Shown piece after piece: positions 6,760 to 36,461 of a stretch of 64,000 nt of DNA (positions within the stretch are counted from its first letter, which is position 1; each line of letters begins with the position of its first letter). The position numbers and the translations under genes are program-made. The DNA is taken from NCBI RefSeq assembly GCF_034259205.1, contig NZ_CP139487.1, positions 1,984,001 through 2,048,000 of the forward strand, given 5' to 3'. The stretch comes from Peredibacter starrii (GTDB taxonomy: Bacteria; Bdellovibrionota; Bacteriovoracia; Bacteriovoracales; Bacteriovoracaceae). The notes under the pieces were generated by a model, which saw only the letters and a program-made list of their open reading frames with translations, was not told the origin of the DNA and made no database searches.

Positions 6760-6792
6760 GTCTTTTGGCCACATTTAAGTCATGAAATCCTT

Positions 6793-6836
6793 CCTCTTTT
6801 GTTAGAAATTTCTGCTGTTAATTCTAACAAAAGAGG
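6793..6836 (+). promoter_or_regulatory. 15-bp leader hairpin occluding the SD of the first tandem paralogue
   Basis: CCTCTTTTGTTAGAA (6793-6807) is the exact reverse complement of TTCTAACAAAAGAGG (6822-6836); loop of 14 nt. The 3' arm contains the Shine-Dalgarno AAGAGG for ATG 6841. No U-tract follows on either strand, so it is not a normal terminator. Confidence 0.7.
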
Positions 6837-6840
6837 GAAT

Positions 6841-7284
6841 ATGAAATTGATCGTCCTGACTCTTGTTTTTCTTCTCTGGTCTGTTGCTCGCGCTGATGAA
6901 ACTGTTGTAGCAGAAGTTCGTGCTGGTTTCTGGAGAACAGAAGCAACTCCCATGTTTGAAATTAACCGCGATCAAGGAAGAGCTTGGGTGACGATCAAAG
7001 CTTGGGATGCAAGTCAGGCCCGTCGAGATCGCTACTACAGTTACTACCGTCAACTTGTTCCAGGACTTACATTCGATAAAGAATCTTCAACCATTGTTTA
7101 TGAAAAAGATGGTGCTATAACGACTTGTGCCAAAGTTGAATCCCGTGGCCGCTCCATTTTTCGTTGGGACTACATTCAACCAACAAATTGTGAGTTAAAA
7201 CTTAAAAAAGTCATGAGAGATTATGACGATGGATTTGAAATCAGACGCATCGAAATGATGCAGGTGCTTTTGAACGTTCTCTAG
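6841..7284 (+). CDS. Exported two-Cys paralogue family, member 1
   Basis: 147 residues from ATG 6841 (GAGGG just upstream). Signal peptide MKLIVLTLVFLLWSVARA then DETVV. The mature part shares a pattern with the next four genes: VxEV.., then FEINRDQGRAWVT, then PGLTFDKESSTIVYEKDG, then TTCAKVESRGRSIFRW and TNCELKLKK. The two cysteines are conserved in all five and could form a disulfide in the periplasm. I know no named family for this. It is the most diverged member along with member 5. Confidence 0.8.
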   Translation: MKLIVLTLVFLLWSVARADETVVAEVRAGFWRTEATPMFEINRDQGRAWVTIKAWDASQARRDRYYSYYRQLVPGLTFDKESSTIVYEKDGAITTCAKVESRGRSIFRWDYIQPTNCELKLKKVMRDYDDGFEIRRIEMMQVLLNVL

Positions 7285-7332
7285 TGTTTTCTTTTGTAAT
7301 CAGTTCGTAAAATTTTGTATCTACAGAGACAG

Positions 7333-7377
7333 ACCTCTTTGTTAATGGTGTTTCTTTTTTAACCATTACTAAGAGGT
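7333..7377 (+). promoter_or_regulatory. Leader hairpin occluding the SD of paralogue 2
   Basis: ACCTCTT (7333-7339) pairs with AAGAGGT (7371-7377), and TAATGGT (7343-7349) pairs with ACCATTA (7362-7368), with a small internal loop between the two helices. The SD AAGAGG for ATG 7383 lies in the outer helix. Confidence 0.6.
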
Positions 7378-7382
7378 TTGTT

Positions 7383-7811
7383 ATGAAAAAGTTGGCCCTA
7401 TCTTTCGCCCTTCTTCTTGTTTCTTCAGCTCACGCATCAGTTGTTCTTGAAACTGGTACAGTGTCAATGAGCCATAAAACTGAAGCTAAATTCGAAATCA
7501 ACAGAAAGAACGACACTGCATGGGTTGTTCTTCAGCAAACTGTTCGTAAGCACGGTGGTCGTGGTGATGTTCGTGACATCGTTTACGAAGAGAAAGCAAA
7601 CGTTGAAGGTCTTTCTTTCGATGCTGCCACAAACACTGTTGTTCTAGTTAAAGACGGTGCTCTTCTTGAGTGCGCGACTGTTGAGCTACGTGGAATTTCA
7701 ATCTTCCGTTACAACAAAATTACTCCAACAGGATGTAAGCTTGTAACTAAGAGAGTTCCAAGAGCGAACAGCCGTTTCACGAACACACAAGTTCACCTTA
7801 TCACTGAGTAA
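7383..7811 (+). CDS. Exported two-Cys paralogue family, member 2
   Basis: 142 residues, signal peptide MKKLALSFALLLVSSAHA, mature N-terminus SVVLETG. Conserved blocks as in the other members: FEINRKNDTAWVVL, VEGLSFDAATNTVVLVKDG, LECATVELRGISIFRY, TPTGCKLV, ending in the shared TQVHLI. Likely periplasmic or secreted beta-rich domain. Followed by a strong UUCG-loop terminator, so members 1 and 2 could be one unit or two. Function unknown. Confidence 0.8.
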   Translation: MKKLALSFALLLVSSAHASVVLETGTVSMSHKTEAKFEINRKNDTAWVVLQQTVRKHGGRGDVRDIVYEEKANVEGLSFDAATNTVVLVKDGALLECATVELRGISIFRYNKITPTGCKLVTKRVPRANSRFTNTQVHLITE

Positions 7812-7824
7812 TTCTTCTCTGACA

Positions 7825-7848
7825 TACGCTGGTCTTCGGATCAGCGTA
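7825..7848 (+). terminator. UUCG-tetraloop hairpin after paralogue 2
   Basis: TACGCTGGTC, loop TTCG, GATCAGCGTA: 10-bp stem with one G.U, 13 nt after the stop. The following tract (CGTTCTCTCC) is U/C-rich, so termination may be partial. Confidence 0.7.
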
Positions 7849-8079
7849 CGTTCTCTCCTAAAAAATCCTCAATTCCTGAAAGTCACATCATAGTTTTGCA
7901 AAGATTCTGTTAGGAAATCTAATGGGCGCAAATTATTTTTTCTTACCTGGAAGTTGGAAATTGCTGGTGACAATTTGGCCAGAAATGCAACTTACTAGAG
8001 GGGAAATTTGTTTTTTTTAGTGATCAAATACAGATGATAGGTCGCGTAGCGCTTCATTTAAGTTTAAGAACACAGGTAA
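7849..8079 (+). other. Intergenic stretch with one weak micro-ORF
   Basis: About 230 bases between the terminator of paralogue 2 and the leader hairpin of paralogue 3. One open frame, 7922-8020 (32 codons, MGANYFFLPGSWK...), has a poor TTAGGA SD and no other support. The remainder is AT-rich and presumably contains the promoter for paralogue 3. I see no tRNA, repeat or strong dyad in it. Confidence 0.4.
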
Positions 8080-8129
8080 CTTTTTTTTGTTAATTCTTTG
8101 GGCGTTCGTTAACCATTAACAAAAAGAGG
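8080..8129 (+). promoter_or_regulatory. 15-bp leader hairpin occluding the SD of paralogue 3
   Basis: CTTTTTTTTGTTAAT (8080-8094) pairs with ATTAACAAAAAGAGG (8115-8129) at all 15 positions, two as U.G. The wobbles fall in the SD AAGAGG, so the structure exists in RNA but not as a perfect DNA palindrome. ATG is 6 nt downstream at 8136. Confidence 0.65.
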
Positions 8130-8135
8130 TTTGTT

Positions 8136-8588
8136 ATGAAAATGTTAGCAGTGTCTCTGTCTCTGTTATTTGTTTCTGCGGCCAACGCTTCCATGGTTCT
8201 TGAAGTTCCAACTGATCATTGGGCAGAAAGAAACGAAGCAAAATTTGAAGTGAACAAAGAGCAAGGTCGCGCCTGGGTAACGCTTATGCAAATTCAACCG
8301 CGTCGAGGTGGCCACAAATCTGCTGGTCCAGGTGAATTCGCTCGCGAAACTCGCGCTAAAGTTCCGGGCATGTCTTACGATGAAGCTTCAAAATCAATTG
8401 TACTTGATCAAGATGGCAGAATCGTAGAATGTGCAACCGTTCGCACTCGTGGTGTATCGATCTTCAAGTACGACAAGATCACTCCGACTGGCTGTAAACT
8501 AATCGTTAAGAAGGCGAAAAAGGCCCAAGATGATGGTTTCAGAACTCGTTACATCAGTGTAACTCAAGTTCACTTGATTGCTGAGTAA
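8136..8588 (+). CDS. Exported two-Cys paralogue family, member 3
   Basis: 150 residues, signal peptide MKMLAVSLSLLFVSAANA then SMVLEVP. Shared blocks: FEVNKEQGRAWVTL, VPGMSYDEASKSIVLDQDG, ECATVRTRGVSIFKYDKITPTGCKL. Closest to member 4, which starts 11 nt after this stop, so the two are co-translated. The leader resembles that of member 2 (GAGGTTTGTTATGAAAA), showing that duplication included the regulatory region. Confidence 0.8.
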   Translation: MKMLAVSLSLLFVSAANASMVLEVPTDHWAERNEAKFEVNKEQGRAWVTLMQIQPRRGGHKSAGPGEFARETRAKVPGMSYDEASKSIVLDQDGRIVECATVRTRGVSIFKYDKITPTGCKLIVKKAKKAQDDGFRTRYISVTQVHLIAE

Positions 8589-8599
8589 GGAGCATCACC

Positions 8600-9055
8600 A
8601 TGAAATTCTTAACTCTTGTTTTTGCAGTTCTTTGTATTGCTCAAGCTCAAGCCGCTGAGACAGTGGTTCTTGAAGTTCCTAAGAATTCGTGGGCCCGCGA
8701 GCTTAAGGCCGTCTTTGAAGTAAATAAAGACAATGGTCGAGCGTGGGTAAGTTTGAATTTCAGAGAGCAGTTCGGTGGCTCAGGTAGCCGTCGTGATGCT
8801 CCACAAATGTCCGTTAGTACTCGAGTGGCCGGTCTCTCATATGACACAGCCTCACAAAACATTATCTTCGAACAAGATGGTGCTTTAACAGAATGTGCAT
8901 CGGTCAGAACTCGTGGTGTTTCAATTTTCAGACATGACAATATCACAATGACTGGATGTAAGTTGAAGGTTAGGCACGTAAAAAAGATGGTGGACAATGG
9001 GTATGAGGTTCGTAAAGAAGACAGAACTCAGGTCCTTCTCATCACCAACAATTAA
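8600..9055 (+). CDS. Exported two-Cys paralogue family, member 4
   Basis: 151 residues, signal peptide MKFLTLVFAVLCIAQAQA then AETVVLEVP. Conserved FEVNKDNGRAWVSL, VAGLSYDTASQNIIFEQDG, ECASVRTRGVSIFRHDNITMTGCKL. Has its own SD (AAGGAG overlapping the member 3 stop) but no hairpin, consistent with coupling to member 3. A clear terminator follows. Confidence 0.8.
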   Translation: MKFLTLVFAVLCIAQAQAAETVVLEVPKNSWARELKAVFEVNKDNGRAWVSLNFREQFGGSGSRRDAPQMSVSTRVAGLSYDTASQNIIFEQDGALTECASVRTRGVSIFRHDNITMTGCKLKVRHVKKMVDNGYEVRKEDRTQVLLITNN

Positions 9056-9077
9056 ACACTTAAATTAACTCTCACAT

Positions 9078-9101
9078 AGCGGGTATCTTAAGGTACCCGC
9101 T
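9078..9101 (+). terminator. Rho-independent terminator after paralogue 4
   Basis: AGCGGGTATC, loop TTAA, GGTACCCGCT (one U.G), followed by TTTTATCTTT. Confidence 0.85.
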
Positions 9102-9194
9102 TTTATCTTTGTGCACAAATTAAAAGCATTTTACAACAGGTGAGTGGGGCCTTTATACACGACCATTCGTTTAACTTTTATTAATGGAGTTTGT

Positions 9195-9638
9195 ATGAAA
9201 TTGTTCGCACTCGTTTTCTCACTACTTGCTTTCTCGGCAGCACACGCTTCTTCAAAGGTTCTGGTTTATGAAGTTGCTGAGTCTTACTGGAAACAAAATC
9301 CAGATGCTTCTTTTTCTGTTAACAAGATGAAGTCTGATGCTTTCATCACTTTTACAACTGAGACGATTGAACAGGATCCTCACCGTGTGATTAAGAACGA
9401 AACAAAAGTAGCTGTTCCTGCTCTTTCAATTCGTGATGGTCAAACGATTCAACTTGAACAGGAAGGTTCACTTGTTGACTGTGCTACAGTTCAAACTCGT
9501 GGCGTATCTGTGTTCCGTTGGAACAAAGTGACTGAAACTGGTTGTACTGTAAAAGTAGAAACAGTTAGAAAAGTATTCAATGACAATGGTTACACTCGCA
9601 AAATGCGCGTTCACCAGGTCTTCATTGTTGTTAAGTAA
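9195..9638 (+). CDS. Exported two-Cys paralogue family, member 5
   Basis: 147 residues from ATG 9195 (GGAG upstream, and the signal peptide MKLFALVFSLLAFSAAHA starts here). The glycine in the GRAW block is lost (FSVNKMKSDAFITF), but VPALSIRDGQTIQLEQEG, DCATVQTRGVSVFRW and TETGCTVK remain. Most diverged domain core of the five. Its leader has only a 5-bp CCATT/AATGG pairing around the SD. 3' end overlaps the convergent HDAC-like gene by 28 nt. Confidence 0.75.
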   Translation: MKLFALVFSLLAFSAAHASSKVLVYEVAESYWKQNPDASFSVNKMKSDAFITFTTETIEQDPHRVIKNETKVAVPALSIRDGQTIQLEQEGSLVDCATVQTRGVSVFRWNKVTETGCTVKVETVRKVFNDNGYTRKMRVHQVFIVVK

Positions 9639-32597: not shown

Positions 32598-33098
32598 ATG
32601 AAATTCGCATCCCTGTTAGTTCTTCTGGCACTCACTGCCGCCTGCGGGAAAGAGGGTGGAGGTAGTGGACGGTCTTCTGTGGCCGCAGGTCAGCCTGGTG
32701 TTTGTAATTTGAATGGTCGTTCAGTTGCCTGCGAATCTATTCGTGGAGCTGATGGCCTTGGAATCGATCTATTAGAAACAATGGTCGATGCTCCCATCCA
32801 AGTTACGGATTCAGAAATTCAGTTCTTGGGTGACAAAGAATCATTGACTCAAGGACGTCGAATTGAATGTCGTACGAATGTTAAGAGCGGCGAAACTTAT
32901 CGCTATACTCTTAGAGGTCAGCGACTTTTGATTGATACAGAAAGTGGCTCATATGAGATGACCCGTCTGAATTCTGGCGAAGGTCTGATTGGAACTTGGG
33001 TATGGAAAGGTTATGTGGATGGTGGAACTCATATCATCCGTCAGTTTTCTTTCCTGGGTAACGATCGTGTGATTATTAGAACTAACTGCGAATTGTAA
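32598..33098 (+). CDS. Lipoprotein of unknown function, 166 aa
   Basis: Signal peptide MKFASLLVLLALTAAC with lipobox LTAAC, then a Gly/Ser linker. Several cysteines (VCNLNGRSVACES, IECRT, TNCEL) and an all-beta look in the C-terminal part (GEGLIGTWVWKGYVDGG). Family not recognised. Its SD is within a 14-bp hairpin. Ends at a bidirectional terminator shared with fadA. Confidence 0.7.
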   Translation: MKFASLLVLLALTAACGKEGGGSGRSSVAAGQPGVCNLNGRSVACESIRGADGLGIDLLETMVDAPIQVTDSEIQFLGDKESLTQGRRIECRTNVKSGETYRYTLRGQRLLIDTESGSYEMTRLNSGEGLIGTWVWKGYVDGGTHIIRQFSFLGNDRVIIRTNCEL

Positions 33099-34316: not shown

Positions 34317-36461
34317 TTAATAATAAGTTTTGTTTTCCGCTGCCAGACCTTTCATGAATGGCGTGAAGTCATACATGTGGCCGATTGATTGATACTTCTT
34401 AGACTCTTCTTCAAGTTTTTTTAGTCCAATCGTGTCAGCATACTTAAGGGCACCAGCGCGGAATGGAGGGAATCCAAGACCAAGAAGAAGACCCATGTCC
34501 ACTTCCACTGGAGTGTTTACAATCTTATCTTCCAGACAACGAGATGATTCAACGATCATAGGGATCATCATACGCATGATGATTTCTTCGTCTGTGATAT
34601 CAATTTGTTTTTTCACCGCTGTCTTAATCAGTTCATAAACCGCAGGGTTAACTTTTTTAACTGGTTTACCTTTTTTATCGATTTCATACTCGTAGAAACC
34701 AACACCGTTCTTCTGACCGAAGCGCTTATTCTCATACATCACTTCCATGATGGTCTTCGATGTATAGGCCATGCGATCAGGGAAAGCGTCGGCCATAATT
34801 TTCGCCGCGTGAACTCCTGTATCGATACCAACGACGTCGAGAAGGTACGCCGGACCCATTGGCCAGCCGAATTTTTCCATCACTTTATCGATGCGTTGGA
34901 AATCCACACCATCTTCGATCAAGTGAGCAAAGCCCTTGAAGTAAGGGAATAGAATTCTGTTCACCAGGAAGCCCGCGCAGTCGTTAACAACGATTGGCGT
35001 TTTACCCATCTGAACAGCATAGTTAACTGCTTGAGCGATTGTTTCTTCCGAACTCTTCGCACCACGGATGATCTCAACCAAAGGCATTCGGTGAACTGGG
35101 TTAAAGAAGTGCATACCGCAGAATTTATCCGGACGAGCAAGGCCTTCAGCTAGTTTTGTGATTGAGATGGTTGAAGTGTTAGAAGCAAGAACTGTATCAG
35201 CAGATGTGGATTTCTCGACCTCAGCAAGAACTGATTTCTTCACTTTCTCATTCTCAACGACAGCTTCAACCACGAATTGAGTGGCCCCAAAGTCAGCGTA
35301 AGAAAGCGTTGGAGTAATTTGTGCAATAACTTTTGCCATTTTCTCCGGAGTCATTTTTTTACGTTCAACTTCTTTAAGAAGAAGTTTACCAGCTTCGTTC
35401 ATACCAAGATCAAGTTGCTCGTGCTTAATATCTTTCATCAGCACTGGAGTTCCAGTTGAAGCTGATTGATAAGCAATACCGCCACCCATGATACCAGCAC
35501 CAAGAACCGCGCCCATCTGAGTTGGTTTAGCGTTCTTTGTTACAGATTTTGAAACTTTTTTAAGATACTGATCACCAAGGAAGACTTGAGTTAAGCATTC
35601 CGCTGTTTTTGTTTTAGCACAAACAGCGAATGTCTCACCTTCAAGAGCAAGTGCCTCATCGCGATTCATACGAGCGGCCTTTTGCATGGTCTCAACTGCT
35701 TTAACTGGAGCAGGATAGTTAGGGCCGGCCATCGCAGCAACAAATGCTTTAGAGCCATCAAAGCTCATGGCCGATTCGATTTTATCTAACTTAAGAGGAG
35801 ATTTCTTCTGATTAACGCGCGCTTGCCAATCCATCTCACCAGCAATTGCTTTCTCAATAAGCTTGATACCAGCTTCTTCCAGACGAGCGTCTTCGATAAT
35901 ACCGTCAATCGCACCAAATTTAAGAGCTTCTTCCGCTTTGTAGTGTTTAGCACCTGTGATCCATTCAATAGCGTGATCTGCACCGACCAGACGAGGAAGA
36001 CGAACCGTGCCACCCCATCCAGGAATGATTCCAAGTTTTGTTTCAGGAAGACCCATTGCTGCTTTAGGCGATGCAAGACGGTAATCCATCGTAAGAGTGA
36101 TTTCGCAACCACCACCAAGAGCGAAGCCATTGATCAAACAAACTTTTGGATAAGGAAGATCTTCATAGCCGTTGAAAATTTTATTGATGCTCGCGATCCA
36201 CGTTTTCATTTCATCTTCGGTCTTTTTAAAGTGACCCAGGAATTCAGTAACGTCTGCACCGAATACGAATCCACTGGCCTTACCAGAAGTGAAGAGAAGA
36301 CCACGTGCTTTTTGTTTTTTAATTACTTCAAGCATCTCACCAAGTTCTTTTAGTGCGAGAGCATTGAACACGTTTGTCGATTGATCTTTCAGATCAAAAA
36401 CAACTTTTAAAATATCATTTGGGAGAGTTTCAAGGCGGAATGCCTGACCGTTAAATAACAT
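34317..36461 (-). CDS. fadB: Multifunctional fatty-acid oxidation complex alpha subunit
   Basis: 714 residues, full length. N-terminal enoyl-CoA hydratase domain: [11 protein letters not shown], then [20 protein letters not shown] and [22 protein letters not shown]. Then NAD-binding 3-hydroxyacyl-CoA dehydrogenase: [18 protein letters not shown], with the [11 protein letters not shown] active-site region, and C-terminal dehydrogenase repeats (NRILFPYF). Performs hydration and oxidation steps of beta-oxidation. No TetR operator like that at 4938 precedes it. Its leader forms a 13-bp hairpin over the SD. Confidence 0.95.

Follow-up and report, generated by a model that had tools for sequence, protein, structure and literature searches.

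The five-gene cluster

The window analyzed here is a 64,000-nucleotide stretch of the Peredibacter starrii chromosome, and within it five related genes, each starting with ATG, lie in tandem on the forward strand:

6841..7284 (+): gene 1, 147 aa, signal peptide at residues 1-18
7383..7811 (+): gene 2, 142 aa
8136..8588 (+): gene 3, 150 aa
8600..9055 (+): gene 4, 151 aa
9195..9638 (+): gene 5, 147 aa, the most divergent of the five copies

The start of gene 1 is fixed by the MK-signal-peptide alignment common to the copies and by an SD of GAGGG. An earlier reading of the DNA, made from the sequence only, proposed that these genes are tandem paralogues, and they are. They align end to end, and 23 columns, two of them cysteines, are invariant; gene 3 used as a query against its own genome recovers its four neighbors at E-values of 1e-36 to 7e-24, so the likeness of the copies is far above chance. 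Gene 1 shares 37, 39, 42, and 29% identity with the four other copies. Every copy carries a signal peptide that ends in A-x-A or similar and is without a lipobox, in agreement with the exported architecture originally described, and every copy combines the signal peptide and the two conserved cysteines with a full-length match to the family profile. Two further members lie beyond the window at C1:1604855 and C1:1626715, bringing the family to seven in the whole genome.

The motif blocks listed in the sequence-only reading are found in most copies but are not exact in every one. The AW block reads AF in gene 5; in place of QDG, genes 1 and 2 have KDG and gene 5 has QEG; and TGCKL is exact in genes 2-4 only, being TNCEL in gene 1 and TGCTV in gene 5. 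The two invariant cysteines, by comparison, are kept throughout an alignment of 54 sequences as well.

Extent of the family

The suspicion that these proteins belong to no named family is borne out. Profile and single-sequence searches of the five against Pfam, NCBIfam, and PHROGs give no credible match, and PDB sequences give none to the 54-member profile. A single NCBIfam match at 2e-4 and, for a few members, DUF5335 matches at 0.005 are taken as chance. Profile searches of the loci collected assemble a family of about 98 sequences, a few of them truncated by contig ends and one (L087, ~90 aa) resembling a heavy-metal-binding domain and probably matched through its signal peptide. A group of this size, unnamed in the libraries searched, is of note in a phylum of predators with much unexplained biology.

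The proteins are conserved well beyond this strain. Members occur in 18 of the 48 Bacteriovoracaceae genera sampled and are sparse in the other families of the phylum. Among good Bacteriovoracaceae genomes only 24 of 71 have a member, and the family is therefore not a core component of predation. A scan of every GTDB species genome by pattern, which reaches close relatives only, finds matches in Bacteriovoracaceae only. Phage and plasmid records searched by tblastn contain no match and thus lend no support to a mobile origin. Matches to the pattern TTAACAAAAAGAGG in the genome are no more frequent than in the control.

Copy number and selection at the locus

The cluster occupies a recurrent site, in which a thiolase and a thioesterase gene are followed by one or more family genes and then by a conserved downstream block. 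The same site in five other genomes holds 1, 2, 2, 2, and 3 copies, compared with five here. In a maximum-likelihood tree the five copies and the orthologues of the site form one clade (98/81), and a second clade of shorter paralogues adjoins the site-clade genes in four relatives. The cluster thus arose by the local duplications envisaged at the outset: its copies share one clade with the site orthologues, and copy number varies between genomes at a fixed position. In another genome the same site holds a single member of 388 aa (L075:5864-7030, +), which carries at its C-terminus an extended run of Lys-rich, decapeptide-like repeats (GKKKVDPELN/A).

A second recurrent site, with one to three copies, lies between a response-regulator-like gene and an opposite-strand operon that encodes MCE, ABC-ATPase, and permease proteins; a SAM synthetase gene is also among its neighbors. 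This convergent, Mla-like operon adjoins the site (L062:4147-8536 and its equivalents) in about a dozen genomes. Both sites are syntenic, but a common functional theme was not found among their neighboring genes. Expansion of families by recent duplication has been described for predatory Bdellovibrionota of the same phylum (PMC11656739); the expanded families named in its abstract are peptidoglycan enzymes, and the two-Cys family was not found by name in the passages covered.

The term "diversifying," applied to the copies in the sequence-only reading, is not supported in the sense of adaptive sequence change; the variation present is concentrated in the loop described below and in copy number. 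Ten pairs with usable dS, made up of close orthologues and one local-paralogue pair, have dN/dS of 0.03-0.17, and positive selection is rejected for the orthologue pairs. Selection between close relatives is strongly purifying, with the qualification that gene-wide averages could hide a few loop sites.

Cysteines, loop, and predicted fold

Mature family members have exactly two cysteines in 74 of 98 sequences and exactly four in 21, and in all 21 four-Cys members the extra pair lies inside the loop between strands beta3 and beta4. Even numbers of cysteines are as expected of disulfides formed outside the cytoplasm, and the conserved pair of these exported proteins apparently forms one. The beta3-beta4 loop varies in length between 6 and 52 residues (one truncated sequence left out), and Gly, Tyr, and Pro are often abundant in it. 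Within the locus clade it is the least conserved segment, with a mean pairwise identity of 0.17, and identity peaks at 0.81 in the R-G-x-S-I-F turn. A four-Cys subset (L048, L055, L104, L106, L068, and L090) carries 30-52 inserted residues, rich in Gly, Tyr, and Pro, that lie between the extra cysteines or surround them.

AlphaFold2 predicts confident all-beta structures for two of the copies. Mature gene 3, modeled with 14 sequences, has nine strands and a pLDDT of 89.5, and gene 5, modeled with the same 14 sequences, reaches 88.4. Neither model has a credible structural match. Foldseek returns nothing at E < 0.1 from the PDB for both models or from BFVD for the first. The modeled fold may be new, or it may be a remote variation on a common sandwich.

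Hairpins and transcript organization

The 5' leaders of genes 1-3 each contain a hairpin with the SD in its 3' arm, and two further stems lie within the cluster. Stem figures are the longest uninterrupted stems, with G-U pairs counted.

6791..6838 (+): SD hairpin of gene 1, 17-pair stem, fold z -5.75
7328..7382 (+): SD hairpin of gene 2, 12-pair stem, fold z -5.1
8078..8131 (+): SD hairpin of gene 3, 17-pair A/U-rich stem, fold z -2.0
7825..7848 (+): stem of 10 pairs capped by a TTCG loop, directly downstream of gene 2, no clear T run
9078..9101 (+): terminator-like hairpin with a T-rich tail, after gene 4

Genes 3 and 4, separated by a gap of 11 bp, are likely cotranscribed, and the terminator-like hairpin at 9078-9101 probably puts gene 5 in a different unit from them. 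The stem at 7825..7848 is a possible transcript end. An L20-leader match at 9009-9114 falls short of the gathering score of its family, shares sequence with the terminator, and was set aside; nothing in Rfam scores at the gathering threshold.

Freeing the SD at 30 C is calculated to cost 13.2, 13.1, and 7.0 kcal/mol for genes 1, 2, and 3; among 306 control genes the median cost is 3.3 kcal/mol and the 95th percentile lies at 9.0. From 10 to 55 C the three SDs are accessible at most 1% of the time in ViennaRNA calculations. Burial of the SD in a 5' hairpin is a known means of controlling small heat-shock genes, exemplified by the ROSE and fourU thermometers. Those elements resemble the hairpins of genes 1-3 in placing the SD inside the stem, but the hairpins here are calculated to be much more stable than melting at growth temperature would allow. 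A plain RNA thermometer of the ROSE or fourU type is rejected as unlikely, since in the calculation the SD does not open even at 55 C. Either the hairpin is opened by a factor, or the transcript starts inside it and only read-through RNA is silenced. The hairpins argue that genes 1 and 2, at least, are kept off under some conditions, a point against the reading favored below.

Related elements precede the orthologues, recognizable by sequence as TTTGTTA...TAACA with outer pairs CCTC/GAGG or ACTC/GAGT. RNAalifold finds no consensus structure in a MAFFT alignment of the hairpins because their loops differ in length. Across the whole family the SD-hairpin signature is weakly above controls (P about 5e-4), an excess that comes partly from differing SD strength, and strong SD hairpins are confined to genes 1-3 and a few other family genes.

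Codon usage

Codon usage was scored against the ribosomal protein operon and ranked among 931 genes sampled from the genome. Genes 2 and 5 and both distant members of the genome fall at percentiles of 97.6-99.5 (gene 2 at the 98th, gene 5 at 97.6), and genes 3, 1, and 4 at 91, 76, and 60. Ribosomal-like usage that places four of the seven family genes in the top 2.5% of the genome suggests high expression, and some copies are probably made in large amounts. The ordinary codon usage of genes 1 and 4 counts against the reading favored below.

Possible function

The reading favored here, held tentatively and at somewhat below even confidence, is that these are lineage-restricted small exported beta proteins in which a fixed disulfide core carries an adjustable binding loop, and which expand locally. 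Each protein would be exported through its Sec signal peptide and, once out of the cytoplasm, would form a compact all-beta domain, with the one conserved disulfide as a staple. The mature protein would be soluble in the periplasm or released. Its scaffold would be the core formed by beta6, the R-G-x-S-I-F turn, and beta8, and the beta3-beta4 loop would be the likely contact for a ligand or partner, closed in some members by the second disulfide; such a protein would act by binding rather than catalysis. Tandem copies would provide higher dosage together with several versions of the loop. Against the loop as a binding site, a length-variable loop can instead be a tolerated site of insertion, and the invariant C-A, R-G, and F residues might belong to a catalytic site. 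Testable handles on the family come from the fixed core with its adjustable loop, from a copy number of one to five at a single position, and from the proposed gating of translation by hairpins.

A role in predation is possible, although the patchy distribution argues against a core one. One form of it, which we consider unlikely, is that the proteins are delivered into or onto prey as effectors or digestive accessories. They are exported, their copy number has expanded, and within the searches made they are confined to the phylum of the Bdellovibrio-like predators; yet two-thirds of good Bacteriovoracaceae genomes lack a member, the neighborhoods have no link to predation genes, and the low dN/dS does not suggest an arms race. 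Equally unlikely is that the proteins are inhibitors that use the exposed loop as inhibitory site and shield the predator envelope from the proteases or lysozymes that the cell itself secretes. A small, exported, apparently disulfide-stapled beta fold with a variable exposed loop would suit such a role, and gene multiplicity could parallel enzyme multiplicity. However, the Pfam, NCBIfam, and PHROGs searches reveal no similarity to any listed inhibitor family, and the neighborhoods contain no protease- or lysozyme-type enzyme genes. Should either role prove correct, the proteins would add a new component to bacterial predation.

A more ambitious form of the favored reading, and a somewhat less probable one than either of these, would make the family a phylum-restricted set of abundant recognition proteins, exported and built on a new beta fold whose disulfide-fixed core carries one interchangeable loop. 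Their translation would be gated by the hairpins, their copies would multiply at fixed chromosomal sites, and predators would use them toward varied prey or environments.

Lower still stands the proposal that these are extracytoplasmic holdase chaperones with an alpha-crystallin-like sandwich, akin to small heat-shock proteins. The HSP20 alpha-crystallin domain is an all-beta sandwich, as the fold modeled here may be, and alpha-crystallin-domain chains rank first among the weak VIA-align alignments of both models, represented by Hsp27 (Z 6.4, 73 residues, rmsd 3.2) and HSPB6 (Z 5.0, 68 residues, rmsd 5.0). The SD-burying hairpins also recall the control of small heat-shock genes. Both Z values, however, are lower than the tool treats as trustworthy and lower than the 7-8 usual for models without a match; Foldseek offers no support at its E < 0.1 limit. 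HSP20 (PF00011) is absent from the Pfam matches of the five proteins at E-values up to 10 and from those of the 54 members at up to 0.1, and the hairpins of genes 1 and 2, calculated to stay closed up to 55 C, are not simple thermometers. The two-Cys family further departs from HSP20 in being exported, in its conserved Cys pair, and in its variable beta3-beta4 loop. As improbable as the holdase proposal is that the proteins are AMIN-like binders of peptidoglycan or another envelope polymer: the AMIN region, which is the N-terminal part of AmiC, is likewise an exported beta domain and aligns with the second model only (Z 4.5, 72 residues, rmsd 3.7), but the score is in the noise range, AMIN is absent from the Pfam matches of the five proteins and the 54 members, and the family consists of small stand-alone proteins with a Cys pair.

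SD-burying hairpins elsewhere in the genome

Stems that include the SD are more frequent in this genome than chance predicts. In a sample of 425 genes, 18 have such stems of at least 11 pairs where shuffled leaders give 4.9, and 8 have stems of at least 13 pairs where 0.6 are expected. They precede 10 of 123 genes with a crude exported-protein signature and 8 of 302 others (P 0.014), a difference that is not significant once the cluster is removed (P 0.09). Elsewhere in the genome SD-burying hairpins often stand before genes for exported proteins or lipoproteins and once before an apparent IMP dehydrogenase gene. Further examples in the window precede the genes at 32598-33098 (+) and 34317-36461 (-), and others are found at L158:7509-7871, L164:1649-2068, L157:178-573, L182:1564-3027, and L185:715-1233.
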